The notes beneath the pieces were generated by a model. It ran no database searches, was not told where the DNA came from, and saw only the letters and a program-made list of their open reading frames with translations. A stretch of 40,608 nt of DNA. Origin: an uncultured Eubacterium sp. GTDB taxonomy: Bacteria > Bacillota > Clostridia > Peptostreptococcales > Anaerovoracaceae. Shown here one piece after another: positions 9,218 to 26,908 of this stretch. Positions within the stretch are counted from its first letter, which is position 1; every line of letters begins with the position of its first letter. The translations under genes and the position numbers were made by a program. The DNA is taken from contig CAMNSS010000022.1 in the NCBI GenBank assembly GCA_946555345.1, forward strand, positions 1-40,608, in the 5' to 3' direction.

Positions 9218-10411
9218 CTATGTCCTTATTTTCTCTATTTCTTCGACGATTTTAGCCTCGTCCTTGGAAAACCGGCTTTTATCCTGTATAAATTGATCGT
9301 ATAAATCAGGACGGCGCTGTTTCGTCAGCAAAAGAGCCTCCCGGAATCTCCACAAGGCAATCAGCTTATGGTTGCCGGAAACCAGCACTTCGGGAACTTG
9401 CATCCCGCAGTATTCCCGCGGCTTCGTATATTGCGGATGTTCCAAAAGCCCCGAATAAATGGATTCATCCAGGGCAGAATGTTCATTGCCCAAAACGCCG
9501 GGCAGCATCCTGGCGACGGAATCGATCAGGACCATAGCTGGAAGCTCCCCGCCCGTAAGGACGTAATCGCCGATCGACACTTCTTCGATGTCCCAATAAT
9601 CCAGCGCCCGCTGGTCCACGCCCTCGTAATGCCCGCACAGGATCACAAACGAATCGAGCTTTGCCAGCTCCTTAATCTTTTCAGCATCGAGGATTTTGCC
9701 GCGGGGCGACATATATACGATTTTCTTCTCCGCCGCATCTACCGATTGCAGTGCGCCGAAGATGGGATCAGCCATCATCACCATGCCCCCGCCGCCGCCA
9801 AACGGATAATCATCGGCTTTGTTGTGCTTGTCATGGCTGAACGCCCTGATATCCGTAAATTGCAACTTTAGAAGACCCTTTTCCACAGCTCTTCCCAAAA
9901 TGCTGCTTCCGATTACCGAATGGAACATCTCCGGAAACAGCGTCAGTACATCTATGTTCATCGCCTTGCGACCGTTTTCTCCCAGCGGCGGATTATATGG
10001 GCCATACGCCCCGCTGGCGGCTGCGGGCAGCTCGCTGGCAGGTGATGCAGCTCCCCCGCTTTCCCGCTCGCCCAGCGGTCCGTTTGCCCGCTTTTCTTTC
10101 TGTCCGGCTGTGCGCTGCGCATTTTCCCCATTTTCCGCCGCACGCTGCATACATTCACCTTTTGGCGCATCACGCTCCGCCAGTAGCGCGCTTTCTTGTG
10201 CTGTGGGCGGTACGTTTCCCCCATTTTCCTGTAGCTTATCTTCGGGCTGCGCACCTGCGTTTTCTTCCCCTGCGTCAGGCCGCTTCACATCCCGTTCGGT
10301 TGTGGATTGCCCGTCTGTGGGCCGTCCGGCTTCCCCATCTGCACATTTCGCATTTTGCCCTGCCCTGCTCCTCACCCATTTGCATACGATGCATTTATTC
10401 CAACTGCCCAT
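9218..10411 (-). CDS. trmD: tRNA (guanine-N1)-methyltransferase with a long N-terminal extension
   Basis: Residues 151-397 are a complete TrmD: the core starts MNIDVLTLFPEMFHSV at 9961 and holds the trefoil-knot SAM-binding segments (YMSPRG, ILCGHYEGVDQRA, EEVSIGDYVLTGGELPA). It methylates G37 of tRNAs. The frame stays open for another 150 codons upstream, encoding a hydrophilic segment rich in E, G, A, N, Q and P with internal repeats. The ATG at 10411 has AAGG at 7 nt and lies 30 nt after rimM, whereas the ATG at 9961 has only a poorly spaced AAGG. I therefore call the longer form, but the core start cannot be excluded. rplS, the usual downstream partner, is absent. Confidence 0.85.
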   Translation of the reverse strand: MGSWNKCIVCKWVRSRAGQNAKCADGEAGRPTDGQSTTERDVKRPDAGEENAGAQPEDKLQENGGNVPPTAQESALLAERDAPKGECMQRAAENGENAQRTAGQKEKRANGPLGERESGGAASPASELPAAASGAYGPYNPPLGENGRKAMNIDVLTLFPEMFHSVIGSSILGRAVEKGLLKLQFTDIRAFSHDKHNKADDYPFGGGGGMVMMADPIFGALQSVDAAEKKIVYMSPRGKILDAEKIKELAKLDSFVILCGHYEGVDQRALDYWDIEEVSIGDYVLTGGELPAMVLIDSVARMLPGVLGNEHSALDESIYSGLLEHPQYTKPREYCGMQVPEVLVSGNHKLIALWRFREALLLTKQRRPDLYDQFIQDKSRFSKDEAKIVEEIEKIRT

Positions 10412-10441
10412 TCGCACACCTTACGTCCTTCCCCGCAAACA

Positions 10442-10939
10442 TCAGAGATCGAGAAGCCCTGCTGGAAGCCTCACCTCGATTTCTCCCTGCCGCATATCGA
10501 TATTTATCACAAATTCATCCACCTTGGGAATCAAAAGCTGTTTTCCGTTTTCCCGCTCCACCTCAAAGATATCCTGCGCCGTATTTTGCAGGACATTGAC
10601 AACCTTGCCGAGCGGCGTGCCGTCCTGCTCCTTTACAGCCATGCCGATCAGGTCCCGCACATAAAACTGCCCTGCGGGAAGCACGGGCAGGTCCGCCTCC
10701 GTGATAAAAAGATCCTTGCCCTTGGCCGCTTCCGCACCGTTCCGGTCGTCGATCCCGGAAAGCTTTAAAATCACCATGTGCTTTTGCAGCCTCACGTTTT
10801 CCACTGCAAGAAGCGCATCCCCCATATAGATAGCATCCGCTCTTTCATATGCCTCCGGGCTATCCGAATAGTTGTAGACCTTGACCTCGCCTTTCAGCCC
10901 CACCGCATTCACGATTTTTCCAATTTTTATCTTTTCCAT
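10442..10939 (-). CDS. rimM: Ribosome maturation factor RimM
   Basis: A protein of about 165 residues. The N-terminal RimM barrel begins KIKIGKIVNAVGLKGEVKVYNYSD, and a PRC-barrel C-terminal domain includes GQFYVRDLIGMAVKEQDG and the QLLIPKVDEFV block. It assists 30S maturation near the 3' domain head and binds S19. The frame is open to 10969, but the ATG at 10939 is preceded by GGAAA at a usable distance and starts at the conserved region. It lies between khpA and trmD in the standard order, with a strong hairpin upstream (10964-10994). Confidence 0.93.
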   Translation of the reverse strand: MEKIKIGKIVNAVGLKGEVKVYNYSDSPEAYERADAIYMGDALLAVENVRLQKHMVILKLSGIDDRNGAEAAKGKDLFITEADLPVLPAGQFYVRDLIGMAVKEQDGTPLGKVVNVLQNTAQDIFEVERENGKQLLIPKVDEFVINIDMRQGEIEVRLPAGLLDL

Positions 10940-10963
10940 TTCGATTTCCATATAATACAGCAC

Positions 10964-10994
10964 AGGCACATATACCGTAACAATATATGTGCCT
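10964..10994 (-). promoter_or_regulatory. Perfect 11-bp hairpin between khpA and rimM
   Basis: Arms AGGCACATATA (10964-10974) and TATATGTGCCT (10984-10994) are perfect complements around a 9-nt loop. No U-run follows on the minus strand, so it is not a standard terminator. It may set mRNA processing or stability between khpA and rimM. A weak promoter (TTACGG-17-TATTAT) overlaps its downstream arm. Confidence 0.5.
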
Positions 10995-11016
10995 CTTATG
11001 CATCTCTTATGTGTCT

Positions 11017-11247
11017 TTATTGAACGATTTCAACCACTACCTTGGCGTTCGCTTTCGTGGCTGCCGCTTTCACGACGGTACGGATAGCCTTGGCGATCCT
11101 GCCCTGCTTTCCGATGACTTTTCCCATGTCTTCCGGCGCTACTTTCAGTTGTATCACCGTAGTGCCGTTTGACTGCGATTCTGAAATTTCAACTGCCTCC
11201 GGATGTTCAACCAGCGACTCTGTAATTGCACGAACTAACTCTACCAT
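11017..11247 (-). CDS. khpA: KH-domain RNA-binding protein KhpA
   Basis: A 76-residue protein that is one KH domain with the signature loop IGKQGRIAKAIR (GxxG type). KhpA pairs with KhpB and affects cell elongation and small-RNA biology in Gram-positives. The frame includes two earlier GTG codons; the ATG at 11247 is chosen because GGTGA lies six bases upstream and the family begins MVELVRAITESLV. It follows rpsP by 15 nt and precedes rimM, the normal Firmicutes order. Confidence 0.93.
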   Translation of the reverse strand: MVELVRAITESLVEHPEAVEISESQSNGTTVIQLKVAPEDMGKVIGKQGRIAKAIRTVVKAAATKANAKVVVEIVQ

Positions 11248-11262
11248 TGGTTTCACCACTTT

Positions 11263-11502
11263 CTATAAGATGCCGCTTTTTTTGAACAGCTTCTTTACTG
11301 TATCTGTTGGCTGCGCACCGTCTCCTAGCCATTTTTTCGCTCTTTCTTCATCGATTTTGATGTCGGCAGGATCGGTCAGTGGGTTATAATAGCCGATTTC
11401 CTCGATGAACTTGCCGTCGCGCGGCGCCCTCACGTCTGCAACTACCACGCGGTAAAAAGGTTTCTTGTGCGCTCCCATTCTCTTCAGTCTGATCTTAACC
11501 AT
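11263..11502 (-). CDS. rpsP: 30S ribosomal protein S16
   Basis: A 79-residue, full-length S16 with the N-terminal family pattern [20 protein letters not shown] and the GYYNPLTDP loop. It is an assembly protein of the 30S body. GGAGG precedes the ATG. It sits between ffh (58 nt away) and khpA in a conserved ribosome and translocation operon. Confidence 0.98.
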
Positions 11503-11559
11503 TCTCTTATTTCCTCCTAAATATCATAATTTAATAATTGTTTATCCTGTACAGGGATG

Positions 11560-12900
11560 TTAAAACCCCCGGAACATTCGATTCATTTTGCCGCCCTTGC
11601 CCATGAAACGCTTCATCATCTTCCGCGATTCTTCATAACGTTTCACAAGCTGGTTGATTTTCGAGACGGGCTGTCCTGACCCGGCGGAGATCCGCCGCCT
11701 CCTGCTGGCGTTGAGGATGGATGGGTTTTCCCGCTCCTTCCTGGTCATGGACTGGATAATCGCTTCCATCTGGGCGAACTCTTTTTCGCTTTTTTGCATA
11801 TCCATGTTCTTCATCGCCTTATTGTTTGCGCCCACGCCCGGCATCATGTCCAGCACTTTGCCAATGCCGCCCATTTTCTTGATTTGCCCCATCTGCTCCA
11901 GAAAATCCTCCAGCGTAAAGCTGCTTTTCCGTATTTTCCGTTCCAGTTCGAGGGCTTTCTTTTCGTCGTAATCTTCCTGCGCTTTCTCAATCAGGGTCAG
12001 CATGTCCCCCATGCCCAGGATTCTGCCCGCCATCCGTTCCGGATGGAACGGTTCTAAAGCGTCAAATTTTTCGCCTACGCCGACGAATTTGATCGGCCTT
12101 CCCGTCACTTTTTTCGTGGAAAGCGCTGCGCCGCCCCTCGAATCGCCGTCCATCTTGGTCATGATAATGCCGTCTATGCCGAGCTTATTATGGAAACCTT
12201 CCGCCGCATTTACGGCATCCTGCCCGGTCAGTGCATCCACCACCAAAAGGATCTCGTGCGGCTTGACCGCTGATTTGATGGTAACGAGTTCTTCCATCAG
12301 TTCTTCATCGATTTGGAGGCGTCCCGCCGTATCGACGATCAGCACATTACAGCCTCTGCGCTCCGCTTCCTTCATTGCCGCCAGTGCGATCTTCTCCGGC
12401 TTTTGGCAGTCCCGCATGGTGAATACCGGCGTATCCACAGCGTTCCCGACGACTTCCAGCTGGTCGATCGCCGCAGGCCTGTATATATCGCAGGCGCAGA
12501 GCATTGGGTTCTTGCCGTTTTTCTTCAAATAGTTTGCCAGCTTGCCGCAGGTAGTCGTCTTACCTGTACCCTGAAGACCGACCATCAGGTAAACGGTAAA
12601 ACCTTTCGGGGAATAGGTGAGCTTGCTTCCCGTGCCGCCCATCAGCTCGGTCAGCTCTTCGTTTACGATTTTGATAACCTGCTGTCCTGGCGTCAGGCTA
12701 GCCATGACTTCCTCGCCCAAGGACTTCTCCTTGACGCCTGCCACAAATTCCTTCACGACCTTGAAGTTGACGTCCGCTTCCAAAAGCGCCAGCTTGACTT
12801 CGCGCATGGCAGCGTTGATATCGGCTTCCGTCAAGCTTCCCTTGCCTTTCAGCCCTTGAAATACGCCTTGCAGTTTTTCTGATAATCCTTCAAATGCCAT
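11560..12900 (-). CDS. ffh: Signal recognition particle protein Ffh (SRP54)
   Basis: A 446-residue protein with an N-domain helical bundle (1-~90), the G domain with GLQGTGKTTTCGKLA (G1), DTAGRLQIDEEL (G3) and TKMDGDSRGGAALS (G4 region), and the methionine-rich M domain (about 300-446) ending FMGKGGKMNRMFRGF. It binds 4.5S RNA and signal sequences and delivers ribosomes to FtsY. AGGA precedes the ATG. It follows ylxM by 4 nt, so the two are cotranscribed. The gene encoding 4.5S RNA is not in this window. Confidence 0.98.
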   Translation of the reverse strand: MAFEGLSEKLQGVFQGLKGKGSLTEADINAAMREVKLALLEADVNFKVVKEFVAGVKEKSLGEEVMASLTPGQQVIKIVNEELTELMGGTGSKLTYSPKGFTVYLMVGLQGTGKTTTCGKLANYLKKNGKNPMLCACDIYRPAAIDQLEVVGNAVDTPVFTMRDCQKPEKIALAAMKEAERRGCNVLIVDTAGRLQIDEELMEELVTIKSAVKPHEILLVVDALTGQDAVNAAEGFHNKLGIDGIIMTKMDGDSRGGAALSTKKVTGRPIKFVGVGEKFDALEPFHPERMAGRILGMGDMLTLIEKAQEDYDEKKALELERKIRKSSFTLEDFLEQMGQIKKMGGIGKVLDMMPGVGANNKAMKNMDMQKSEKEFAQMEAIIQSMTRKERENPSILNASRRRRISAGSGQPVSKINQLVKRYEESRKMMKRFMGKGGKMNRMFRGF

Positions 12901-12904
12901 CGGA

Positions 12905-13492
12905 TTATTCCTCCAAATTATCTATAATTTCTTTTGCTTTCTTTAGCTCCCTGATTACGGCGGCCAATGTGCCTTGCGGTGCGGCGGATTCCATGCAATC
13001 GGCTGCTTGCAACGCTAAAAAACCTGCTCCAGCGGGCTTTGCATCCGGATGCACGGCGGCGGCCTCTGCCGCCTCTGCGCCCTTTTCAGATATTGCGGGT
13101 TTTCCAGCCTTTGCGGCTAAAAGGCCTTCCAAATCCGCTCCCCCGCCAAAACACCCTGCCGCAAGCCCCATATCTTGCGCCTCTGGAACGCCGTCTCTTT
13201 GCAGCTGCGCAATTACGCCATCTATAATTTCATCGATTTCGCTGATCGCAGTCCGGCTTTTTTCAAATTTCGCCACAAGCCCCAGCTTCGATTCGTATTC
13301 ATGCAACGCCTTTTCGGCATTCTTAAGCGCATCATGGACGCCCTGCCTGCTGATCTGAAATTCCCCGGCAATCTCCGACAGCGTGAGATTTTCTTCGTGA
13401 TATAGCGCAATCACTTCCCGCTGCCGTTTTGGAAGAAGCTGCCCATAAAAATCGTAAAGCAGGCTTGCCTGTGTAATGTCATCTATCTTCAT
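12905..13492 (-). CDS. ylxM: YlxM-family SRP-associated HTH protein with an insertion
   Basis: A 195-residue protein. Residues 1-100 are a sigma-70 region 4-like helix-turn-helix domain (LTLSEIAGEFQISRQGVHDAL) followed by a coiled coil, as in YlxM/UPF0122. Most relatives have about 110-130 residues. Here residues about 101-175 form an A/G/E-rich low-complexity insertion, and the usual C-terminal helix resumes at about 176 (LAAVIRELKKAKEIIDN). YlxM modulates SRP activity. ATG 13492 is chosen over the TTG at 13510 because AAAGGA lies 7 nt before it. It is the first gene of the ffh operon. Confidence 0.9.
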   Translation of the reverse strand: MKIDDITQASLLYDFYGQLLPKRQREVIALYHEENLTLSEIAGEFQISRQGVHDALKNAEKALHEYESKLGLVAKFEKSRTAISEIDEIIDGVIAQLQRDGVPEAQDMGLAAGCFGGGADLEGLLAAKAGKPAISEKGAEAAEAAAVHPDAKPAGAGFLALQAADCMESAAPQGTLAAVIRELKKAKEIIDNLEE

Positions 13493-13533
13493 CTCATCAT
13501 CCTTTGACAAGTAAAAACACTTGACGCTATGCC

Positions 13534-13562
13534 AGTATACAATATTGTTCCTGCATTGTCAA
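13534..13562 (-). promoter_or_regulatory. Strong promoter of the ylxM-ffh-rpsP-khpA-rimM-trmD operon
   Basis: Minus strand TTGACA (13562-13557), 17 nt, TATACT (13539-13534): near-consensus boxes. The predicted start is about 35 nt before the ylxM ATG, leaving a short leader that contains a 5-bp hairpin (CAAGT/ACTTG). Confidence 0.88.
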
Positions 13563-13580
13563 GCTTTTTTGCTTTGCATC

Positions 13581-14330
13581 TCAACTGGAGGCCTCCCCCC
13601 TTTTCTTCATCTGCCGCAACTCCTCTTTCTGGCAAGGTGTGAGCCGAAAACTCTCCCTTGCCTTTTGCAATGCTTTGTTATAGGTAAAAGCATCCAGCGT
13701 GCAGCTCTGCATAAATGCCCTGGTTTCATCGTAAAACTTCACGAAGCAGACCGAAAGCAGCCATGCGACAGCCATTTTCACATAATATCCCCCATGGGTA
13801 ATGCTTTCGGCGATCCGGAAAATACGTTCCAAATAGTCTTCCTTTACATAATAATCCAGCAGCATCACAACGCCGAAGCGGACATCATATTCCGAACCAG
13901 AGGCAAGGTATTTCTGCAAAAATGCATAAGTTTCATCCGGATATTTCTTCACTTCCTTTAGTCCTGCGCAGAAAGTATCGCAAACCGCCCAGTTTCTGAT
14001 TTTCGGGACAAACGCTTCGATCTGATGGAAAAAAGCATCCCGTTCAGGCTTTTTCTGGACGCCGATGAGCATTCCCTGGAGCATGATTTCTTCGTAGTAA
14101 TCATCGCCGGTCATGGCAATCAGGCTGTCTACGTCTTTATCCCATTTTTTGGAAAGCTCTTTCGCATACTGCCGCAGAACCGGCACCCGCACGCCGACGA
14201 TGGCCTGCTCCCCCGGAACAAGCTGGCTGTGAAATTCCTTGTATGCCTCGTCCCGCAAAGAAAAAATATCGTCCCGGATCGTTTTCTTTGTAATCATTTC
14301 GTTCGTTCCAACCGTAATGTTTTGATTCAT
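13581..14330 (-). CDS. DNA alkylation repair (AlkD-like HEAT-repeat) protein
   Basis: A 249-residue all-helical protein of the DNA alkylation repair family (AlkD/AlkC-like HEAT-type repeats). Recognisable blocks are GVRVPVLRQYAKEL, YYEEIMLQGMLIG, IRNWAVCDTFCAGL and YYVKMAVAWLLSVCFVKF. AlkD relatives excise bulky or positively charged alkylated bases; many clostridial homologues are untested, so glycosylase activity is inferred. The ATG has AAGGA 11 nt upstream; a second in-frame ATG at 14297 has GGAACGA upstream and could be the real start. It has its own unit, and its end faces the ylxM promoter. Confidence 0.85.
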   Translation of the reverse strand: MNQNITVGTNEMITKKTIRDDIFSLRDEAYKEFHSQLVPGEQAIVGVRVPVLRQYAKELSKKWDKDVDSLIAMTGDDYYEEIMLQGMLIGVQKKPERDAFFHQIEAFVPKIRNWAVCDTFCAGLKEVKKYPDETYAFLQKYLASGSEYDVRFGVVMLLDYYVKEDYLERIFRIAESITHGGYYVKMAVAWLLSVCFVKFYDETRAFMQSCTLDAFTYNKALQKARESFRLTPCQKEELRQMKKRGEASS

Positions 14331-14471
14331 TTCTATTTTTTTCCTTTTTTTCTTTTATTGCTTTTTAATTCCTGTTGTTTTTTCCACACACTTATGGTAT
14401 TTATTATAGTACAGTGCCGGCATAACCACAAGCAGGCACAAGCATTCTCACAGAAAGCGAGGCCATGAAGC

Positions 14472-14969
14472 ATGAGACGAAAAGACAGGGAAATGAACAA
14501 AGAATTTGCGTTAAGCATAGCGGATAAATGCGAATATGCCACACTGGCAATGGTTGACCCTGGCGGCAAGCCTTATTGCGTGCCAGTCACCATCGCCTGT
14601 GACGGCGGCGCCGTTTACTTTCATACCGCCAAGGAAGGGCAGAAAATAGATGCGCTCCGAAACAACCCTGCTGTATGCATGAGCTGTGTCGGGGACACCT
14701 GCCGGGCGACGGATAAATTTACCACCGAATTTGAATCAGCCATCCTGTATGGAAATGCTGCCGAAGTGAGTGCAGATAGCGAAAAGATCCATGCGCTCCG
14801 CCTGATCTGCCAGCGGCATACACCCGCCAATATGCACCAGTTCGACGCATCCATCGAAAAGAGCCTTTCCCGCACCGGCGTATGGAAAATAGAAATCACC
14901 AGCATCACCGGGAAACGGAAAAAATACGACAGACGCGGGGAAGAAATGAAGTTCGGCCGCATGGAGTAA
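14472..14969 (+). CDS. Pyridoxamine 5'-phosphate oxidase-like (NimA-type) flavoprotein
   Basis: A 165-residue FMN-binding split-barrel protein of the PNPOx-like/nitroimidazole-resistance family. The N-terminus MRRKDRE is the hallmark start of this family, so ATG 14472 (AGCGAGG 8 nt upstream) is preferred over ATG 14493. The core includes CEYATLAMVDPGGKPYCVPVTIACDGGAVYFHTAKEG (14539-14649), with the usual histidine, and a C-terminal GVWKIEITSITGKRKK block. Members bind FMN or heme; the substrate is unknown. It is divergent from the AlkD-like gene. Confidence 0.88.
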   Translation: MRRKDREMNKEFALSIADKCEYATLAMVDPGGKPYCVPVTIACDGGAVYFHTAKEGQKIDALRNNPAVCMSCVGDTCRATDKFTTEFESAILYGNAAEVSADSEKIHALRLICQRHTPANMHQFDASIEKSLSRTGVWKIEITSITGKRKKYDRRGEEMKFGRME

Positions 14970-15234: not shown

Positions 15235-16131
15235 ATGAAACGAAAAATCATTAAGATAAATGAAGAAAAATGCAACGGCTGCGGCCTTTGTGCAAAAGCC
15301 TGCCATGAGGGGGCAATCGGCATGATCGGCGGCAAAGCAAAGCTGCTGCGCGATGATTACTGTGACGGACTGGGCGACTGCCTTCCAGTATGCCCGGCAG
15401 ATGCCATATCCTTCGAGGAAAGGGAAGCTGCCGCTTATGACGAAGCCGCCGTAAAAGCCAACATGGCGCAAAATGCCAAAGGACAAACACACGCACATGA
15501 TTCCGGTGCGCCAAACACCGAAGCGCAGGCGCACGGCGATTGCGAATGCCATCACGGGCATCCGCATGAAGACAATCATGGACACGGCAAATGCGAAAAG
15601 CAACATGAACACGTGCATGGCCATAGCGGCGGCTGTATGTCAACAGCCTTCAACGGCGCAATTTCCAAAAACACAAGCTCTGGTTGCGGCGGCCACAATG
15701 CGCCTGCCGGTAAAGAAAACGCTGAATGCGGCGGCCACAATGCGCCCGCCGATTCCGCCGATATCCCTAGCGCACTCACGCACTGGCCGGTACAAATCAA
15801 ACTAGCTCCCATTCATGCACCGTATTTTGACGATGGGGATCTGCTGATCGCCGCTGACTGCTGCGCATATGCTTACGGCAATTTCCACGGAAAATTCATG
15901 GATGGCAAGATCACGCTCATCGGCTGTCCGAAGCTGGATATGATCAATTACGCCGAAAAGCTGACGGAAATCATCAAATCCAACCACATCAAAAGCATTA
16001 CCGTAGCCAGGATGGAAGTCCCATGCTGCGGCGGTATGGAACACGCTGTCAAGCAGGCGGTCGCAAGCAGCGGCAAAGATATCGCGCCAGAGATCATCAC
16101 CATCGGAATCGACGGCAGTTTAAAGGAATGA
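15235..16131 (+). CDS. 4Fe-4S ferredoxin-like protein with a His/Cys-rich insertion
   Basis: A 298-residue protein. Residues 1-60 are a dicluster ferredoxin-like module (C13xxC16xxC19xxxC23, then C43, C49 and C53). Residues about 181-298 are the conserved domain of an anaerobe family with LLIAADCCAYAYGNFH, ITLIGCPKLD and VPCCGGMEHAV motifs. Between them, residues about 79-175 are a His-, Cys-, Gly- and Asn-rich low-complexity stretch with runs such as HHGHPHEDNHGHG and a duplicated CGGHNAPA, which could bind metal. Its biochemical role is unknown; the family is often called an electron-transfer or ATP-binding ferredoxin protein. Start signal AGGAG. The preceding 265 nt hold no gene I can support. 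Confidence 0.85.
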   Translation: MKRKIIKINEEKCNGCGLCAKACHEGAIGMIGGKAKLLRDDYCDGLGDCLPVCPADAISFEEREAAAYDEAAVKANMAQNAKGQTHAHDSGAPNTEAQAHGDCECHHGHPHEDNHGHGKCEKQHEHVHGHSGGCMSTAFNGAISKNTSSGCGGHNAPAGKENAECGGHNAPADSADIPSALTHWPVQIKLAPIHAPYFDDGDLLIAADCCAYAYGNFHGKFMDGKITLIGCPKLDMINYAEKLTEIIKSNHIKSITVARMEVPCCGGMEHAVKQAVASSGKDIAPEIITIGIDGSLKE

Positions 16132-16156
16132 CAATAAGCAGAAAGATTGCCGAAGG

Positions 16157-16254
16157 GGATTAAAGAGGGTAACAGCCTGCGAAATGATTGCAGGGAATTT
16201 AAAGAGACAACAGATGAAAGAATTGCAAGGGATTGAAATGGGCAACAGCCTGCG
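16157..16254. repeat. Degenerate 72-nt direct duplication
   Basis: The 303-nt gap between the ferredoxin-like gene and the DUF554 gene holds no gene. Two copies of a GGGATTAAAGAGGGTAACAG-like sequence start at about 16157 and 16229. Only about 25 nt match well. Confidence 0.45.
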
Positions 16255-16434
16255 GAGGGATAACGGGTAAAACCGCCCAGACATAACAACTGGTAAATTT
16301 CTAAAAGCATAAAAGTTAATATGCGCTAACCAATACCGCTCTTTCAGAAACACTTACTGCAAACAAAACGGGCAGATGCGGCAAAGCCTTGGCTTGGTTG
16401 CATGATCAGGCCAGGATTTTGCCCGCATTTTTGC

Positions 16435-17109: not shown

Positions 17110-17179
17110 TTCATGTCTCCTTCTGTATCGCCTTCTAAATTTTCAAGCAAAACGCAATCACCTGCCGCCCAGGCACGCC

Positions 17180-17373
17180 GCCAGGCTTGCGATGCAAAGC
17201 ATAGCGGCTAGTCCCAGCTTGCTCAATATGCTTTTATCTGCCGCACGCCACCAATCCAATGCAGCCGCTAGCCGCCGAAGAACCCGCCGCAGCCGCTGAT
17301 CCGTTCAATCACTGCTATTCAAATATGACAGCCAGTCCCAGCTTACCCGTGATGTTTTTATCTGCCGCACGCC
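17180..17373. repeat. Direct repeats and degenerate duplicate in the DUF554-niaR gap
   Basis: The 341-nt gap contains no gene. About 40 nt beginning AGTCCCAGCTT recur at 17210 and 17334 (offset 124). The stretch at 17180-17215 also resembles part of the neighbouring DUF554 gene (GCCAGGCTTGCGATG, near 16910), as if a fragment had been duplicated and decayed. Confidence 0.5.
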
Positions 17374-17450
17374 GCCCAATCACCGCCGCTAAATTCAATC
17401 AAAAACTGCCAAGCATTTTTCTAAACCCAGCCGCACGCCACAGCACGCCA

Positions 17451-18857: not shown

Positions 18858-20346
18858 TTTCTTCACGCCTCCTCGCCGTTTCTTCCATTTTATCAAATAC
18901 CAACTGCCGATACAGCCGTTCAAGCTGCTTGGCATCCTTATAGTCTTCCAAATTCACGTATTGCGATACATCTTCGGCCTTTGCGTTGGCAGCCGCATTA
19001 GCGTCGCCAGCTTCGGCCTTCATATCGGCAGACGCACCCTCAGCAGCCGCACCAGCAACGGTCTCGTCCTTTGCACCAGCGCCAGCAACCCCGGCCTTTG
19101 CACCAGCATGGAAAGCCGCACGCCCAGTTCTTGCATCAACACCAATATCCCCGGCCTTCGCATCAACATCAGCGCCCGCACCTTCCGCTCCGCGCGAAGC
19201 CATGTCCTGCGCTGCACGGCCTGCAAACACCAAGCTCTCCAACAGGGAATTGCTCGCAAGCCGGTTCCTGCCATGGACACCATTACACGCCGTCTCCCCG
19301 ACCGCATAGAGCCTGTCCATCGATGTCCTGCCCTGGTGATCCACCTGGATGCCGCCCATAAAATAATGCTGCGCCGGCACGACCGGAATGCATTCCTTCG
19401 TCACATCGTACCCCATCTGGCGGCAATGCCCCGCAATGTTCGGAAAATGGTTTTCGATCTCCTCATCGGGAATGCCCCTAAGATCCTCCCATACAAACTC
19501 CGTGCCGTCCTTTTCCATCTGCTTTTTAATCGCAGCGGTCAGCCTGTCCCGCGGCATCAACTCATCTGCAAATCGCTCCATGTTCTTATCGTACAGGCGC
19601 GCTCCTTCCCCGCGGACGGATTCGGAAATTAAAAAGCTCCTGCCATCCGCTTCATCATACAGGGTCGTCGGATGAATCTGCACATAATCGAGATCCCGGC
19701 ACGCAATCCCATGCTTAATAGCGATAGCAATGGCATCCCCCGTCAAATGCCTGTAGTTGGTCGAATGCTCATATAACCCGCCGATTCCGCCGCAGGCCAG
19801 CACCACATCACCCGCCGAACAAGCCGCAAGGCTTCCATCCTTCATCCTGACCACAGCGCCAACGCACCGATTCCCGCAACATATAATATCGACCAGCGTG
19901 GTATATTCCAGCATGGTAATATTGCTACATTGCCGCACGGCGGAAAGCAACTTGCTCGTGATTTCCTTTCCCGTGATGTCTTCATGGAAAAGCACACGGC
20001 TTTCCGAATGCGCGCCTTCCTTGGTGAAGGCGAGGGAACCATCCTCGTCCCGCTCGAAATCAACGCCAATCTTCAAAAGATCCTCCACCACATCGCCGGA
20101 AGAGCGTATCATGATCTCGACGGACTTGCGGTCATTTTCATAATGTCCCGCACGCAGCGTATCCTCAAAATATGCCTCGTAATCGTCCTCGTCCTTCAGC
20201 ATACACATACCGCCCTGCGCCAAATAGGAATCATTGCTTTCCAGATCGGCCTTGGTGATGAGCAATATCTGCTTTTCTGCAGGAAGCTTGAGCGCACAGT
20301 AAAGCCCTGCGCATCCGCTCCCGGCAATTAAAATATCTGTTTTCAT
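18850..20346 (-). CDS. nadB: L-aspartate oxidase with a low-complexity C-terminal insertion
   Basis: Residues 1-383 are the FAD-binding part of NadB: ILIAGSGCAGLYCAL at the N-terminus, the YLAQGG segment, QIHPTTLYDEADGRSFLISE, and a C-terminal FAD block ETACNGVHGRNRLASNSLLE. It oxidises L-aspartate to iminoaspartate for NadA. Residues about 384-460 are a strongly A/G/D/K-biased repetitive segment, and a short helix (LEDYKDAKQLERLYRQLVF) stands where the usual C-terminal helical domain would be. The ATG has only a weak shine-dalgarno. It is the first gene of nadB-nadC-niaR. Confidence 0.93.
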   Translation of the reverse strand: MKTDILIAGSGCAGLYCALKLPAEKQILLITKADLESNDSYLAQGGMCMLKDEDDYEAYFEDTLRAGHYENDRKSVEIMIRSSGDVVEDLLKIGVDFERDEDGSLAFTKEGAHSESRVLFHEDITGKEITSKLLSAVRQCSNITMLEYTTLVDIICCGNRCVGAVVRMKDGSLAACSAGDVVLACGGIGGLYEHSTNYRHLTGDAIAIAIKHGIACRDLDYVQIHPTTLYDEADGRSFLISESVRGEGARLYDKNMERFADELMPRDRLTAAIKKQMEKDGTEFVWEDLRGIPDEEIENHFPNIAGHCRQMGYDVTKECIPVVPAQHYFMGGIQVDHQGRTSMDRLYAVGETACNGVHGRNRLASNSLLESLVFAGRAAQDMASRGAEGAGADVDAKAGDIGVDARTGRAAFHAGAKAGVAGAGAKDETVAGAAAEGASADMKAEAGDANAAANAKAEDVSQYVNLEDYKDAKQLERLYRQLVFDKMEETARRREENV

Positions 20347-20413
20347 GGTTATCGCCTGTCCCTATGCTCGTACTCCTTGTACGTATCCTGTTACAATAGC
20401 TTCATCGTGCCAT

Positions 20414-20451: not shown

Positions 20452-20466
20452 TTATATGAATAATTT

Positions 20467-20504: not shown

Positions 20505-20589
20505 CACACGTAATGGCAAGTATTTCACGGCAATTATTTAACAATTATTTGACAGTTATTCACGAAATACCGTTTTGGAGGTAATAAAG

Positions 20590-21507
20590 GTGTTGACAAA
20601 AGAGATGCAGGAAGAGATCCTGCGATTAAAGAAAGAAAATGATGTTTGTATTTTAGTGCATGCCTACCAGAGCCACGACATATGGGAGGTCGCCGACTAC
20701 ATGGGCGATTCCTACGGATTGAGCCTGAAAGCGGCAAAAGCCCCGCAGAAAACGATATTGATGTGCGGCGTGCGTTTTATGGCAGAAACCGTCAAGATCC
20801 TGTCCCCTGAGAAAAAAGTCCTGCTCGCAAACCCGCTGGCCGGATGCGCCATGGCCGACCAGCTGGACGCCGCCCGGCTAACGGAATTAAAAAAGCAATA
20901 CCCTGGCCATACCGTAGTGGCCTACATCAATACGACGTCAGAGCTGAAAACCATATGCGACGTATGCGTCACCTCATCGTCAGCGCCGAAAATCATTAAA
21001 AATATGAAGGAAAAAGATATCCTTTTCGTGCCGGACTGCAATCTGGGCGCATGGATCGCAAAGCAAGTGCCGGAAAAAAACATCCAGCTGATCGACGGCG
21101 GATGCCCTGTCCATGCGAATGTCACCATCGATGCCGTCCGCAAAGCGAAAAAGCGCCATCCAAATGCACTGCTCCTGGTTCACCCGGAATCGCTGCCCGA
21201 GGTCACGGAAAACGCCGATTATGCGGGAAGCACGACAGGGATCATGGATTTTGCGAAAAAGAGCGAAGCGAAGGAATTTATCATTGGAACGGAAAACAGC
21301 ATCGTGCAGCATTTGCAGTTTGAATGCCCGGACAAGACTTTTTACCCGCTTTCCAAGGGCTGCGTATGCAACGATATGCGCCTGACAACGCTGGCTGATG
21401 TATATGGCTGCGTCAAAGGAACCTGCGGAGAGGAAATCACGCTGGCAAGCGATGTGATGAAAAAGGCCAGAAGGTGCATCGATACGATGATCGAGTTAGG
21501 AAAGTGA
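20590..21507 (+). CDS. nadA: Quinolinate synthase
   Basis: A 305-residue [4Fe-4S] enzyme that condenses iminoaspartate with dihydroxyacetone phosphate to quinolinate. The three cysteine sites are in NPLAGCAMA, IDGGCPVHAN and SKGCVCNDM; VHAYQSHDIWEVADYMGDSYGLS is the N-terminal substrate region (starting near 20656). The open frame extends slightly upstream. GTG 20590 is chosen because GGAGG lies 8 nt before it; the TTG at 20593 is also possible. It is divergent from nadB, so the pathway enzymes are under a shared control region. It is monocistronic. Confidence 0.95.
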   Translation: MLTKEMQEEILRLKKENDVCILVHAYQSHDIWEVADYMGDSYGLSLKAAKAPQKTILMCGVRFMAETVKILSPEKKVLLANPLAGCAMADQLDAARLTELKKQYPGHTVVAYINTTSELKTICDVCVTSSSAPKIIKNMKEKDILFVPDCNLGAWIAKQVPEKNIQLIDGGCPVHANVTIDAVRKAKKRHPNALLLVHPESLPEVTENADYAGSTTGIMDFAKKSEAKEFIIGTENSIVQHLQFECPDKTFYPLSKGCVCNDMRLTTLADVYGCVKGTCGEEITLASDVMKKARRCIDTMIELGK

Positions 21508-21774
21508 TGGATGCGGCGTGCGGGAAATGATGGGCGCGGCGCATCGAACGACTTTAGGTGCGGGGCACAGGTAGAAAGCGGCGGGCGATGCGGGCGAGGA
21601 ACGGCAGGGTGCGGCGCGCAAGTGGAAAGCGGCGCATCACGCAAGTGCTTTATCCGCATTATGCGGCGCATGAAAAGCGGCGCGCAGCGCGCGGTGTGCA
21701 CCGTTGCTTTAACCCGTTATCGCTTTATCGCTTTGCCTCCGCATCACGCAAGACTTGGCATCACGCCACCTGCT
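21508..21774. repeat. GC-rich low-complexity intergenic region
   Basis: The 267-nt gap contains repeated AAAGCGGCG-like words (near 21577, 21628 and 21673) and GCATCACGCAAG twice (near 21636 and 21742). All frames on both strands are largely open because of composition. No gene is supported. Confidence 0.55.
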
Positions 21775-23703
21775 TCATGTTAGCTTAACCGCTTCCACAT
21801 TTCCCGTTACCGGGTTTCGTTTCGTATAATCAAACAAATAATAGGAGTCCCCCAGCCGTTCCAAATGGGTGCGTTTCCTCAAAACACGCGGGTCTGCGGT
21901 ATTTTCATGCTGCAGACCTTTTAAATACAGGTGATCTTTTGCCTCTGCGCTGTAAAACCCCTTGGCAAAAGCCTTCCCGACACGCTCCGCCCCGAAAAAC
22001 GCCGGCCTGTTCTTCTCATTGTCGCGGGCATAATAATCATATATGAGAGCCTCCTTTAACAGCTCCTTCTGCCGCCCTGCAAGACAACCCTCCCCGAACC
22101 GAAGCAAATGTTCATACCGTTGATTCCGTGAAAAATGCAAAAGAGCCAGTCCATTTTCCCGATACCATGCGCCTAGCTTTTCAAAAAACGCAAACGGCGT
22201 CCCAAAAGCGTCCAGTAACACCTCCAGCCCTTGCGTATACTGCCCGCTGTTGTAATAGGTTTCCACCATTTCTTCAACTGTTTTCAAATGCAAAAGCTGC
22301 CCGTATGAAATCCATTTGGTTTCCAACACTTCATACGGCGGGGCATCGCTGTATTTCAATCCGTACGCAACGCAATTTTCCGCCAGCGGCGAGCCTTTCA
22401 ACACTTTTAAAAAACCGAGCTGGAGCTGATGCGGCCGCAAAGAAAACACCTCGTTAAAGGAATGTTTGAAGCTTTCCAGATCCTCATACGGCAGGCCCGC
22501 TATCAAATCGAGGTGGATATGGATATTGCCAGGCTGTTTTAACCTGCGCACAGCCTGTGAAAGCTTTCCAAAATCGGCCGGGCGGTTGATTTCCCTAAGC
22601 GTCCGTTCATTGACAGACTGTACGCCCACTTCCAGTTGCACCTGCCCCGGGCGCATTGTTTCGAGCAACGCCAGCTCGGCGTCCGTCAAAAGCTCGCCTG
22701 CAATTTCAAAATGAAAATTTGTAACGCCGTTATCGCATTCTTTCAAATATTGCCAGACTGCCAATGTGTGGCCGTGATTGCAGTTGAACGTCCTGTCGAT
22801 GAATTTGACCTGTTTTACGTTATGCGCCAGAAAAAACGCAAGCTGCCGCTTCACCAAATCCAAGCTTTTAAAACGCAGGGATTTTTCGATCGAAGAGAGG
22901 CAATAACTACAGCGGAACGGGCATCCCCTGCTGCTTTCGTAGTATATGATGCGGTTGGAAAAATTCCCTAAATCCTCATAGGGAAAAGGTAGCGCATCCA
23001 TGGAAAGTGGCTTCTGCGCTTTGATTGCGGCCAGTCTGCCCGTCTGCAAAAGGGGCGGCTGCGCTTCGGATAGGTCCTCTGTTTCCAAATGCGAAAGCGG
23101 CTGCGCTTCGGATAAGCAATTTGATGCAAAAGGCGCTTGCAACTGTTCTTGGCCAGCGCCTTTTAATGCCGCATTGCTTGCGGCACGGATTTCATGCATG
23201 CTCGAAATCGCTTGCAGCCTTGCAGAAACTGGCTCGTTCAAATCCTTTCCCGCACCTGCACCGCCATGATTTCCACCAGCATATGCAAATCCATTGTTTT
23301 CATAAGCCTGCACCAACCTGAAAAAAGCTTGCTCCCCCTCGCCGCGGATGATACCCGTAGCGTTTGCAAAAGCTTCCGGTGCATCCGGCATATCAAAAGA
23401 AACCTCCGGCCCGCCCAGCCAGATATCCGTATCGGGGCTGATCTTGCGCAAATCCCCCATAAGCCGTTCAACTTCCCGCCGATTCCAGATATAACAAGAA
23501 AAAAACAGGACGTCCGCTTTTCTTTCATAAATACCAGCAAGAATCTTCGATAATGGCTGGTTGATGGTATATTCCACAATTTCAATTTGCGGCGGCTTGC
23601 CGCCCATTTTCTGAAACTGCTCCATGCAGTACCCTTTCAAGCTGTGTACCGCAAGATTGGAATGAATGTATTTCGCATTCAGCGCCGCTAACAAAAATTT
23701 CAT
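21775..23703 (-). CDS. B12-binding radical SAM protein (DUF4080 type) with linker insertion
   Basis: A 642-residue protein. Residues 1-~135 are a B12-binding-like domain (MKFLLAALNAKYIHSNLAVH, DIWLGGPEVSFD, GEGEQAFFRLVQ). Residues about 255-460 are the radical SAM domain with C261xxxC265xxC268 (GCPFRCSYCLSS), followed by a DUF4080-like C-terminal domain. Such enzymes bind a [4Fe-4S] cluster and probably cobalamin; the substrate is unknown. Residues about 142-232 are a low-complexity linker with a duplicated LSEAQP motif. GAGGGGA precedes the ATG. It has no close operon partner. Confidence 0.88.
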   Translation of the reverse strand: MKFLLAALNAKYIHSNLAVHSLKGYCMEQFQKMGGKPPQIEIVEYTINQPLSKILAGIYERKADVLFFSCYIWNRREVERLMGDLRKISPDTDIWLGGPEVSFDMPDAPEAFANATGIIRGEGEQAFFRLVQAYENNGFAYAGGNHGGAGAGKDLNEPVSARLQAISSMHEIRAASNAALKGAGQEQLQAPFASNCLSEAQPLSHLETEDLSEAQPPLLQTGRLAAIKAQKPLSMDALPFPYEDLGNFSNRIIYYESSRGCPFRCSYCLSSIEKSLRFKSLDLVKRQLAFFLAHNVKQVKFIDRTFNCNHGHTLAVWQYLKECDNGVTNFHFEIAGELLTDAELALLETMRPGQVQLEVGVQSVNERTLREINRPADFGKLSQAVRRLKQPGNIHIHLDLIAGLPYEDLESFKHSFNEVFSLRPHQLQLGFLKVLKGSPLAENCVAYGLKYSDAPPYEVLETKWISYGQLLHLKTVEEMVETYYNSGQYTQGLEVLLDAFGTPFAFFEKLGAWYRENGLALLHFSRNQRYEHLLRFGEGCLAGRQKELLKEALIYDYYARDNEKNRPAFFGAERVGKAFAKGFYSAEAKDHLYLKGLQHENTADPRVLRKRTHLERLGDSYYLFDYTKRNPVTGNVEAVKLT

Positions 23704-23908
23704 ATAAAATTTCCCCTCAAGTAATTACGCTGCGGGCTTCAAAAAACAAAGCAAAAGCGCCTTGCGTCCCGCCGGGCATCCTCTGGACATTTTGAAGCAT
23801 TTTCCAAACAACCTTCAAACGACCCTTGCCGCTTTCAGCCGCCCCAGAAACAACGTGATCGACCGGTTGCCCCTGGAAGCAGCTTTTCCTGCCGCCGACC
23901 CCTGCGTC

Positions 23909-23948
23909 AAAAAGGGCGGCTCGTTGCAAACCCCGGCAACAAGCCGCC
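23909..23948 (-). terminator. Intrinsic terminator after the CobW-like gene
   Basis: Minus strand stem GGCGGCT plus GTTGC (12 paired bases with one mismatch), 8-nt loop, then CTTTTTG. It lies 34 nt beyond the stop of the CobW-like gene. Confidence 0.75.
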
Positions 23949-23981
23949 TCCCTCATCTGCCACTGCTTTCTGCCGATTGCT

Positions 23982-25109
23982 TCAATAACGGGATGCCTTA
24001 GCCAAATTGCTGCTTCCTTCCTCCATCATGCCGAAGCTTTCCATGAAGAAGGTTCTTGCCTTCATATCGTATTTGCCGCAAACATCCTCAACCGCATCGC
24101 TGACGATATCCGCCATCACGACAGCATCCGCCGCGCACCTGGCATTGATGATCAAGGAAAGCGCACTGTACTTCCGATCAAGCTTGCGGTCATATTCCAC
24201 CTCGTAATCAACGCCGATCAAGCTCGCCTTAAAAAAGTCCGTCAGTTCTTCCGCACTGTCCGCCGCAAACATTTTCAAATGCGGCACATTGCTGTCATTT
24301 CGCTTCAAGCCTTCCCGGATTCTTTCAAAAATATCGGCAATCACCTGGTTGAAATCCAGGTTTTTATCTTCACGCTGCTGCATGAAAACCCTGGTGTTGA
24401 ACCAGCTGAGCTGATTTTCAGCGGCAATAAATTCCGCGGATTGATACCCGATTTCCCGATGCTCAGCTTTCGATCTGTGGCTTAAAAGGTAATCCACGAC
24501 CGCTCCCACGCCCCTGCCTTTCATCGCCGACATCGCCATCACCGGGATATGCGGATAAACGCCCCGGAGGAAATCAACGATCTGCGCTGTTTCCTCCTCG
24601 CTAATCGTATCGATTTTATTGAGAACGATCAAGTCGGCCTCCGCCATCTGCGCATCCAGAAGGAACTTTAGCTCTTCAGGCAGGTTGATATCTGCTTGTT
24701 CAGGCATGACCATGCGGAGGCGTTCCGGGTCTACAATACAGGTAAATGGCATCAAGCTAAATTCATCCGGCTCATTGTCCGCAAGTTCCAGATACACATG
24801 ATCCCTGCCGCCGATCCCGCAACCAGGAATATCGGAAAAAATCACGTCAGCCCCTGCCGCCTCCAGTTGGTGCAGCTTGCCCACCAGGTTTTCATGTTGA
24901 TAACAGATGCAGCCGCCTGAAATCGGCAGTGTCATAATGCCTGCCGCCGCGCAAAACGCAGCGTCAACAACATGGCCTGCACCGAGGTCATTGGCAATAA
25001 TTGCCGCACGCCCCAGATTGCGCCGATTGACTTCCCTGCAAAAAGCAATCATGGAAGTCGTTTTCCCCGCACCCAAAAAACCGCTCGTCACCATATACTT
25101 TGTGTTCAT
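23982..25109 (-). CDS. CobW/HypB/UreG-type GTP-binding protein
   Basis: A 375-residue G3E-family P-loop GTPase. The Walker A is GFLGAGKTTSM (8-18), IFSDIPGCGIGG marks switch II, and NKID gives base specificity. The CxCC-type metal motif is degenerate (GGCICYQHE), so only two cysteines remain. The C-terminal half (about 230-375) is unlike the COG0523 CobW_C domain and may be specific to this subgroup. The family moves metals or cofactors into enzymes. It lies 11 nt after the radical SAM gene with AGGAG in the gap, so the two form a two-gene operon and may act on one cofactor or enzyme. Confidence 0.88.
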   Translation of the reverse strand: MNTKYMVTSGFLGAGKTTSMIAFCREVNRRNLGRAAIIANDLGAGHVVDAAFCAAAGIMTLPISGGCICYQHENLVGKLHQLEAAGADVIFSDIPGCGIGGRDHVYLELADNEPDEFSLMPFTCIVDPERLRMVMPEQADINLPEELKFLLDAQMAEADLIVLNKIDTISEEETAQIVDFLRGVYPHIPVMAMSAMKGRGVGAVVDYLLSHRSKAEHREIGYQSAEFIAAENQLSWFNTRVFMQQREDKNLDFNQVIADIFERIREGLKRNDSNVPHLKMFAADSAEELTDFFKASLIGVDYEVEYDRKLDRKYSALSLIINARCAADAVVMADIVSDAVEDVCGKYDMKARTFFMESFGMMEEGSSNLAKASRY

Positions 25110-25120
25110 CTCTCATTCTC

Positions 25121-26908
25121 CTATTCATTTCTATAGATGCTATTATATGCGCAGAACGGAATCAGCTTATTATCCTCTGACAACACCTGCACCCGGCATC
25201 GTTTGAGGCGTTCCGCATCCAGGTTAGAAACATCCTGAAACGCCATTCCCGTCACCGTAAACGAATTGAGCCTGTAATAGCGCAGAAAATCATCCAGCGC
25301 TGTAATCTCCTGGCTGGACTTGTATTGGGAAAGATCTGCCGCCTCATCTGGCGAAGCAACCTCCCATTTGTTCAACACGAAATCCCGGTCCCTTCGGATC
25401 ACCTCCGCCCGGCCGATCTGCGGCAGGCTCCGCCGGCCTGCGCCATCTGCTTGCTGCAAATGCGGGCGCAAGCCTCCGCCTGGCGCATCACCCATTCCCT
25501 GCGAAGGAAGTGCATCACAGCAACTGATGCCAGCTTCCTTCTGCGCATTGGACAGCGTACAGCGCACGCTTCCGTCCGGCTCCCTGATATAAGTGCTGTA
25601 AAAACAACACAGCGTATGCCCCGTAGCGATAGGACAGAAATGTTCGTATTTAAAATCTGAGCGTTGTGCTTCCAGCTCCCGCAAAAGCCCAAACATCGTT
25701 ACCCTTCCTGGGAAATCCCCAGTACGGACCGCACCCGCATACTCTGCTTTGCTACCGCCAGCCTCATGGTTCTCCATTCCCGCTCCGCCACCGGCGCCGT
25801 TTCTGCCAATGCCATCACAATTTCCATCGCCTTCGTTTCCGCCGCCCTCTGCACGGCCTTCCCTTTCACGATTGCCAAAGCCGCTGGTACGGTTTTCATC
25901 TCCGCCACTGCCAGCGCACGCCGCACGGCCTTCGTCCCCCGTGTCACCGCCAATGCCATCATGCCCTTCCGTCCCCGGTCCACTGCGCCTTGCCGCTACT
26001 TCCGGATGCCTGCCAAAAAAACTGACCGGCTGAAAATGGATTCCTTTCACGACATTGATATGCGCTAGCGCAAAATCCATTATTTCGCCGATATTGTCTA
26101 CATTAACACCCTTCACGAGCGTCGGCACGAGCGTTACAGGAAGGCCGGCCTTTTCGCAATTTTGAATCGCTTTCTTCTTGTTTTCAAAAAGCGGTTCACC
26201 GCGCAAGGCTTCATAAATATCATCCCTCGTGCCGTCAAACTGCATGAAAATGACGGAAGCGCCCGCATTCACAAGAACCTTTGCATATCCTTCCTCCAGC
26301 GCCAGCCTTCTGCCATTGGAATTGATTTGCACATAAGAAAAGCCCTTCTCTCTTGCCATTTTGATAATTTGCGGCAAATCATCGCGAAGGGTCGGTTCTC
26401 CGCCGGAAAGCTGAATGTTAAAAGGACGTTCCTCACCCAGCTCCAGCAACAAGTCGTATTTTTTTTCGATTTCTTCCAGCGTCGGTTCACCAAGCCAGCG
26501 GGCGTTTTCCGCCAAGCCCGCAGGCACGGCGTTTTCATCCTGCCCTGTGGAAATCACGCCCTTCTCCGATTGTGCAAAACAATAAGGACAATGCTGATTG
26601 CAGCGGCTGGTCACATCGATCAACACACAACACGCAGTCTGCAAATGGTTTTCACAAGTGCCGCAATGTAGCGGACAGCTTTGATCCTGCGGATCGCCCG
26701 CCGCCAAAGCCATTTTGGGCGCAATATTGATAACCGGATGCTTCACCCATTGCTGATAATCCTCAGCATTTTCCGCAACCGTCGTTTGAAATGTACCATG
26801 CTGCGGACACGTTTTCATAAAGCAAACCCTGCCATCCTCCGCAATGTAATGGGCCTTCAATGGCCTGTGGCAGACCGGGCAAATGCTCTGTGTTGTATTT
26901 AAAATCAC
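25121..26908 (-). CDS. Radical SAM protein (Tes/MJ0619-like) with large low-complexity insertion
   Basis: A 595-residue protein from a GTG start (GGGAG at 8 nt). An N-terminal zinc-ribbon-like module (C10, C13, C34, H37) is followed by extra cysteines (C78, C82, C85, C93, C94) and the radical SAM motif C103xxxC107xxC110. The layout matches the group that includes archaeal tetraether lipid synthase and the MJ0619 pterin methylase, so C-C coupling or methylation of an unreactive carbon is possible; the substrate is unknown. Residues about 302-396 (25721-26005) are a G/E/N/R-rich insertion inside the core, and another atypical patch is at about 475-505. It is cotranscribed with the CobW-like GTPase. 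Confidence 0.86.
   Translation of the reverse strand: MILNTTQSICPVCHRPLKAHYIAEDGRVCFMKTCPQHGTFQTTVAENAEDYQQWVKHPVINIAPKMALAAGDPQDQSCPLHCGTCENHLQTACCVLIDVTSRCNQHCPYCFAQSEKGVISTGQDENAVPAGLAENARWLGEPTLEEIEKKYDLLLELGEERPFNIQLSGGEPTLRDDLPQIIKMAREKGFSYVQINSNGRRLALEEGYAKVLVNAGASVIFMQFDGTRDDIYEALRGEPLFENKKKAIQNCEKAGLPVTLVPTLVKGVNVDNIGEIMDFALAHINVVKGIHFQPVSFFGRHPEVAARRSGPGTEGHDGIGGDTGDEGRAACAGSGGDENRTSGFGNREREGRAEGGGNEGDGNCDGIGRNGAGGGAGMENHEAGGSKAEYAGAVRTGDFPGRVTMFGLLRELEAQRSDFKYEHFCPIATGHTLCCFYSTYIREPDGSVRCTLSNAQKEAGISCCDALPSQGMGDAPGGGLRPHLQQADGAGRRSLPQIGRAEVIRRDRDFVLNKWEVASPDEAADLSQYKSSQEITALDDFLRYYRLNSFTVTGMAFQDVSNLDAERLKRCRVQVLSEDNKLIPFCAYNSIYRNE

Follow-up and report, generated by a model that had tools for sequence, protein, structure and literature searches.

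The window analyzed here is a stretch of 40,608 nucleotides that makes up one whole contig (G000:C22, CAMNSS010000022.1) of the genome of an uncultured Eubacterium sp. from the Anaerovoracaceae, hereafter G000. This genome has 2.85 Mb in 36 contigs, with a completeness of 96% and a contamination of 0.75%, and the sampled part has a GC content of 49%. Six open reading frames of the window were confirmed, together with their family identities, as those of TrmD, YlxM, a 4Fe-4S ferredoxin-like protein, NadB, a DUF4080 B12-binding radical SAM protein, and a Tes-like radical SAM protein with an HMPTM-type zinc ribbon. The original prediction, made from the sequence of the window, had assigned a segment of repetitive type to each of these proteins, and alignment with orthologues, which have no such segments, confirmed this observation. 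All six segments are A/G-rich, hydrophilic, and absent from the orthologues compared, and alignment with the relatives G022 and G023 (G022 only for the B12-binding protein) places each of them as an insertion in a linker or loop or at a terminus. Such insertions proved to be a genome-wide and one-sided feature of G000 when compared with G022, its best-sampled relative and our main sister-species reference.

Inserts of the window proteins and their distribution in the genus

The comparison set for the genus contained 49 genomes, i.e., G000 and 48 other species; the searches made yielded no second genome of the G000 species. The gap between rimM and trmD measures 480 bp in G000, and among the other loci having both genes, 42 in number, it ranges from -11 to 71 bp. 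YlxM was found in 43 of the 49 genomes; its tail has 96 aa in G000 versus 22-53 aa in 36 other loci, and only the G000 match runs past residue 121. The Tes-like protein has 13 orthologues with at least 66% identity, and the matches flanking the insert site are at most about 40 nt apart in all of them. For NadB, which is about 80% identical in the G022 and G023 orthologues, the matches of the seven other genus members possessing this protein end at residues 383-391. Outside the window, a homologue of D-serine ammonia-lyase carries an insert of 102 aa at residue 104, and 35 other genomes match both flanks of this site no more than 66 nt apart (counted by eye). A 106-aa polar N-terminal insertion was found in Rho (L233:7906-9654). 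The possibility that the segments are conserved features of their families was looked for, and they were not found in the orthologues of related genomes; judged by these alignments, the inserts of the proteins tested across the genus are confined to G000, the Rho region being a partial exception.

The coordinates of the inserts and of the enlarged spacers near them are given in Table 1. TrmD of the relatives begins at the canonical ATG and is devoid of the extension. The named relatives found with TrmD are mostly metagenome genomes, several from goat gut or horse faeces, along with Emergencia timonensis at 67%. An AAGGA motif lies upstream of the GTG at 10417, which stands approximately where relatives start trmD, and the GGAG found near the ATG in the trmD of relatives is much farther from the canonical ATG in G000. 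Because of this arrangement, the start-site sequence favors a real N-terminal extension. The claim that the inserted DNA is open in several frames held for TrmD in part: the coding frame of the extension is stop-free and two reverse-strand frames are fully open, but stops interrupt the third reverse frame and both of the remaining frames on the same strand. The extension has a diverged internal direct repeat with a lag of 93 nt and 80% identity over 30 nt. When compared with dinucleotide shuffles, repeated 8-mers numbered 24 versus 1.7 in the NadB insert, 14 versus 1.9 in the DUF4080 insert, and 13 versus 2.7 in the Tes insert, which also shows direct repeats at lags of 72 and 144. The net gain in the DUF4080 protein was 27+37 aa, and the ferredoxin-like insert measures 47-89 residues, depending on the relative compared. 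A late loop of the Tes-like protein (residues 462-501) was not counted among the inserts, since the G022 match crosses it with no net gain.

Two side observations concern these segments. The ferredoxin-like insert is His/Cys-rich and resembles a metal-binding tail, and Cys is present in the shorter linkers found in G022 and G023. The DUF4080 insert (23017-23295) has a 19-bp exact match at L097:6423-6441, just past another gene with a C-terminal insert.

Table 1. Inserts and enlarged spacers in the window, with their sizes relative to the relatives compared
Feature	Position	Strand	Description
TrmD N-terminal extension (predicted)	9962..10417	-	152 residues, 456 nt; occupies the 480-bp rimM-trmD gap; GTG start 24 nt past the rimM stop
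YlxM insert	12965..13195	-	Residues 106-182, between HTH domain and C-terminal helix; 71-76 residues longer than relatives
Ferredoxin-like linker insert	15475..15672	+	Residues 81-146; reaches about 15765 in the comparison with G054
Ferredoxin-like/DUF554 spacer	16132..16434		303 bp (G022, 103 bp); diverged direct repeat of 42 nt (79%, lag 75)
DUF554-niaR spacer	17110..17450	-	341 bp (G022, 11 bp); diverged direct repeat of 51 nt (82%, lag 125)
NadB insert	18958..19191	-	Residues 386-463, between FAD domain and C-terminal part; 66-68 residues vs relatives
Convergent nadA/B12-radical-SAM gap	21508..21774		267 bp vs at most about 36 bp between G022 matches; repeated 8-mers 30 vs 3.1
DUF4080 B12-binding radical SAM insert	23017..23295	-	Residues 137-229, between B12 domain and radical SAM domain
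Tes-like radical SAM insert	25718..26002	-	Residues 303-397; 73 residues, plus 18 elsewhere, vs relatives

Insertions and enlarged spacers across the genome

Intrinsic entropy scans discriminated the genomes poorly (under one setting, the low-complexity fraction was 0.0168 in G013 versus 0.0146 in G000), and orthologue pairs were therefore used instead. The sample comprised 1.04 Mb (37%) of G000 and 732 kb of G022, in which genes were called with a simple hexamer model and paired as reciprocal best matches with at least 45% identity. This gave 206 pairs, with a median identity of 77.5%. The main count was restricted to internal insertions of at least 20 aa; N-terminal ones of this size (29 in G000 versus 19 in G022) were excluded because start calls are arbitrary. 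We found 44 internal insertions in G000 versus 1 in G022 (sign test ~3e-12), located in 31 genes versus 1, and the numbers were 31 versus 0 with a threshold of at least 40 aa and 58 versus 5 with at least 10 aa. The bias was also observed in the more similar pairs, with 20 genes versus 1 among the 180 pairs of at least 60% identity, and 14 versus 0 among the 153 of at least 70%. When C-terminal insertions were included, G000 had 48 inserts in 35 of the 206 genes, with 2976 residues in total, and these 48 are the set analyzed below. The proteins bearing inserts include Rho, AroB, AroA, a MoeA-type protein, an IspH-ribosomal protein S1 fusion, an amidohydrolase, and the D-serine ammonia-lyase homologue. 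Comparisons with smaller samples gave 8 versus 2 internal insertions of at least 20 aa for G000 against G023 (42 pairs), 4 versus 0 against G013 (17 pairs), and 1 versus 1 against G008 (11 pairs), and the corresponding values for G022 were 1 versus 1 against G023 (40 pairs), 1 versus 0 against G013 (12 pairs), and 0 versus 0 against G008 (11 pairs).

The intergenic DNA showed a similar bias. Among 124 syntenic gaps, with a mean of 127 bp in G000 versus 35 bp in G022, the G000 gap exceeded its counterpart by over 100 bp in 40 cases and the G022 gap did so in 3, and several G022 gaps of -41 to +3 bp correspond to 200-451 bp in G000. The expanded spacers were more frequent next to insert-bearing genes (odds ratio 2.6, p 0.022). 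Of the three gaps of the window in which biased repeats had been noticed, those at 17.2 and 21.5 kb are expanded relative to G022, and the one at 37.8 kb has a mild repeat excess, computed in the G000 sequence alone. Inserts were found on 8 of the 12 contigs that yielded pairs, and regional hot spots were rejected, since no heterogeneity was detected among the sampled 20-kb stretches (permutation p of 0.66 for inserts and 0.51 for expanded spacers). With an insertion of at least 20 aa in 35 of the 206 orthologues, no clustering, and enlarged spacers as well, the proposal of a genome-wide process tolerated within housekeeping genes is supported. That proposal was refined in two respects: the DNA looks as if it had been made locally, site by site, and not like a common repeat inserted many times, and, for the proteins tested across the genus, the process is confined to G000, with Rho as a partial exception.

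Apart from these spacers, a dispersed intergenic repeat family of the GCGTTCATT...GAACGC type occupies both ends of the window (1-155 and 39849-40608), with a 73-bp tandem array at 40079-40256, and related copies lie in several more spacers within the sampled part of G000. A long gap at 36693-37363, beside the gene at 36192-36692, contains a 31-bp tandem repeat at 36936-37001 and has short matches in L108, L097, and L104, three further stretches of the sample.

Reading frame, composition, and repeat content of the inserted DNA

The G022 proteins were aligned with the G000 DNA with no open frame required, and of the 217 that mapped, 14 gave split alignments with at least 60 nt of extra DNA. All 14 insertions are in frame and stop-free, and about one third would be expected in frame without constraint. 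The reverse search, in which 206 G000 proteins were mapped to the G022 DNA, gave no split-alignment insertion. When codon usage was compared in the three same-strand frames, frame 0 was the best in 39 of 48 inserts versus 47 of 47 controls, and with six frames the values were 36 of 48 and 46 of 47. Another frame was slightly ahead in the ferredoxin-like and Tes inserts, and frame 0 was narrowly ahead in the TrmD extension. In the composition of the inserts, A, G, P, Q, S, and N are raised, and Y, I, W, F, L, and M are lowered. At the DNA level, the shortage of T falls mainly on the second codon position (0.147 versus 0.309), a pattern that would be expected of selection against hydrophobic residues.

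The repeat analysis of the 48 inserts yielded 107 repeated 9-mers versus a mean of 17.6 in codon shuffles (maximum of 31 in 200 shuffles), and 2.23 per segment versus 0.32 in matched conserved segments. The spacing was a multiple of three for 94 of the 107, and no such phasing was observed in the intergenic repeat lags of G000 (757, 555, and 810 in phases 0, 1, and 2). Using BLAST, direct self-similarity was detected in 12 of 48 inserts versus 7 of 144 shuffles, and in 18 of 41 spacer-type segments (the 40 expanded spacers plus the TrmD extension) versus 5 of 123 shuffles, while inverted self-matches were found in 1 of 48 and 3 of 41, respectively. Among the best 45 matches, the direct repeats were 11-70 nt long and 71-100% identical, with lags of ~59-194 nt, and the lag was a multiple of three in 12 of the 13 that lie in inserts. 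Tandem arrays per Mb numbered 211 in G000, 94 in G022, and 84-150 in four smaller samples, and the density of intergenic 9-mer repeats per kb was 13.7 in G000, 4.0 in G022, 3.9 in G023, 2.5 in G054, and 4.6 in G013, but 15.0 in the small G008 sample.

The inserts were also compared with each other by BLAST, in search of the shared DNA words that the original prediction had envisaged. This test was negative between inserts: none of the 48 matched another one, suggesting that they are not a dispersed element. Only 2 of 48 matched any intergenic stretch, one of these being the adjacent stretch, and a single similar pair was found among the 40 expanded spacers. Collectively, the gain of sequence is one-sided with respect to G022, is widely spread in the genome, affects spacers as well as genes, shows an excess of diverged direct repeats in aggregate, with in-frame phasing only within genes, and involves no shared element.

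Origin and significance of the insertions

These results point to lineage-specific local duplication at tolerant sites, followed by divergence and filtered by selection to in-frame hydrophilic linkers, an explanation that we regard as moderately probable. After the split from the sister species, the lineage would have gained short-range direct duplications where extra DNA is tolerated, in the linkers between domains, in loops, at termini, and in the spacers between genes; the repeats detected have lags of about 20-190 nt. Ordinary substitutions would later have made the copies dissimilar, leaving cryptically simple DNA. Within genes, selection would retain only in-frame, stop-free, hydrophilic, and disorder-like versions, and between genes duplications of any length and phase could survive. 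We infer that duplication made the whole length of every insert, and that the rate of duplication, not only the tolerance of it, may have risen in this lineage. A more far-reaching version, in which a heritable change in replication or repair, limited to this one species, raised the rate of short local direct duplications genome-wide without raising substitutions, so that about one sixth of the conserved proteins gained disordered linkers and operons loosened, is offered tentatively, as a possibility with the odds against it.

Several observations weigh against local duplication as a general explanation. An individual repeat excess was found in just 10 of 48 inserts, so that the excess of local direct repeats over controls expected of slippage or duplication is present in aggregate only; 36 of 48 showed no direct self-match, and the likeness of inserts to their own flanks was weak (11 of 48 versus 16 of 144 shuffled). 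In the window, neither the YlxM insert nor the ferredoxin-like insert has a repeat excess of its own, and the late Tes loop has none either; with so many segments devoid of recognizable repeats, these may not explain every insert. In inserts, codon usage points to the reading frame less clearly than it does in conserved sequence, and therefore it alone is no proof of translation. At least 4 of the 48 inserts (185, 65, 51, and 29 residues) resemble ordinary domain or family sequence by eye, and they stay in all counts. Among the pairs of at least 80% identity, internal inserts were present in just 3 of 88 G000 genes versus none in G022. Counts against G054, a smaller sample, fail to tell the lineages apart, with 4 versus 0 for G000 (38 pairs) and 5 versus 1 for G022 (33 pairs), although the G000 inserts have 48-102 aa and are of low complexity, and those of G022 have 25-51 aa and include two that lie in the same poorly conserved protein. 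The intergenic repeat density of the small G008 sample (stretches L148-L152) was 15.0 per kb, as high as that of G000. The N-terminal region of Rho differs in length across the genus, and insert sites such as those of Rho and YlxM vary in length anyway. Finally, no tested repair gene distinguishes G000 from both G022 and G023.

The repair genes were considered as a source of the bias. MutL is present in G000, matching positions 1-553 of the 555 of the model, and so are MutS (an 895-codon open frame in which domain V is matched at 2-188 of 188), RecJ, and XseA. Loss of mismatch repair, RecJ, or XseA was rejected as the cause, because there was no difference from the relatives searched, and so was Ku end joining, as Ku was found in none of seven genomes, G000 included. 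SbcD was not found in G000, G022, or G023 and is present in G054 and G048; since G022 and G023 do not have these inserts, its loss is not a sufficient cause. In a tree of 23 taxa and four proteins, the root-to-tip length of G000 was 0.737 (range 0.653-0.845), and the mean identity to G054 was 74.0% for G000 versus 75.0% for G022 (20 triples, G000 being lower in 12). The conserved parts of the proteins are thus not clearly faster evolving, with no sign of a substitution mutator, and a mismatch-repair-deficient hypermutator was discarded, as mutS and mutL are retained and the substitution rate is not raised. As a separate observation, MutL and MutS of G000 (L250:9405-13990) carry polar low-complexity linkers themselves.

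Among the other explanations, the one we rate highest, though still rather unlikely, is relaxed selection against extra DNA, in which duplications arise at the usual rate and are not purged, for example because of a small population size. It is in line with G000 having the largest genome among the genus members compared (2.85 Mb versus 1.1-2.7 Mb), with a cross-locus match in 101 of 531 spacers versus 37 of 321 in G022, and with a coding density of 0.81 versus 0.88 in G022, yet G054 (0.82) and G008 (0.84) are nearly as low. Weaker selection should speed amino-acid substitution, which is not clearly faster, and the excess over G022 is very large. We give much less credit to an adaptive gain of disordered linkers, selected for solubility, condensation, or a host-related lifestyle: the inserts keep their frames and have the disorder-typical composition described above, but non-coding spacers expand in the same genome and the affected proteins (Rho, AroB, AroA, MoeA-type, IspH-S1, and NadB) are functionally unrelated.

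It is even less probable that a dispersed family of in-frame mobile elements, similar to the Rickettsia palindromic elements, made many insertions that later decayed. The inserts do lie in frame in unrelated metabolic genes, and G000 has a dispersed intergenic repeat family; however, the lack of matches between inserts, the two matches to intergenic DNA, the single similar pair of expanded spacers, the rarity of inverted self-matches, and the freely varying sizes and compositions of the inserts are contrary to it. A palindromic element of this type, or one akin to miniature inverted-repeat transposable elements, was accordingly rejected, since copy homology was seen in 0 of 48 and inverted repeats in 1 of 48, even though in-frame insertion was seen in 14 of 14. 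An artefact of metagenome assembly or binning is the least credible of all; the genome is in 36 contigs and was judged from the assembly alone, but the inserts differ at every locus, the frame is kept in every split alignment, they are spread over most of the contigs that yielded pairs, and completeness is 96% with 0.75% contamination.

Rickettsia palindromic elements are the nearest bacterial parallel. They are reported to have ~150 bp and ten families, with 44 insertions in unrelated metabolic genes of R. conorii (PMC10969869). On that account, the likeness lies in many in-frame insertions within unrelated metabolic genes of one bacterial lineage, and the difference is that those elements form families of related copies, whereas the G000 inserts are mutually dissimilar and contain direct, not inverted, repeats. 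A survey of simple sequence proteins in prokaryotes describes shaping by duplication and base composition and a negative association with metabolism (PMC1524752). G000 likewise has simple sequence in bacterial proteins, but its inserts affect metabolic and information-processing enzymes, unlike the association stated there.

Outside bacteria, the eukaryotes Plasmodium and Dictyostelium, with genomes of extreme A+T content, have hydrophilic low-complexity segments in housekeeping proteins, thought to have grown by slippage. The G000 segments are similar in being hydrophilic, of low complexity, and within housekeeping proteins, and they differ in belonging to a bacterium with 49% GC in the sample and in being diverged and A/G/S/P/Q/N-rich. 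Tautz, Trick and Dover reportedly described in 1986 cryptic simplicity generated by slippage, i.e., local direct repeats, scrambled and diverged, in both coding and non-coding DNA. Diverged local direct repeats of both locations are found in G000, but there the gain is large, one-sided when measured against a sister species, and present in about 1 in 6 conserved genes. In the literature searched, mostly at title level, we recognized no report of a lineage-private, genome-wide growth of linkers in a bacterium. The type of mechanism is familiar, as the process would work like the slippage-grown low-complexity regions of some protists, but no report was recognized there of such an extent and privacy, or of housekeeping genes being reached in this way within one bacterium.

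In the usual view, deletion bias together with selection against useless DNA keeps bacterial genomes compact, and low-complexity sequence is found mostly in surface proteins. In G000, core enzymes and operon spacers have swelled, those of the best-sampled sister species have not, and the conserved sequence evolved at the usual pace, separating an insertion bias from the substitution rate. This genome offers a natural experiment for studying which sites of proteins can accommodate disorder and how rates of duplication evolve, and it shows that whole-genome linker growth of this kind can occur in a bacterium. If the rate of duplication was indeed raised, G000 would be a bacterial counterpart of the low-complexity-rich proteome of Plasmodium.

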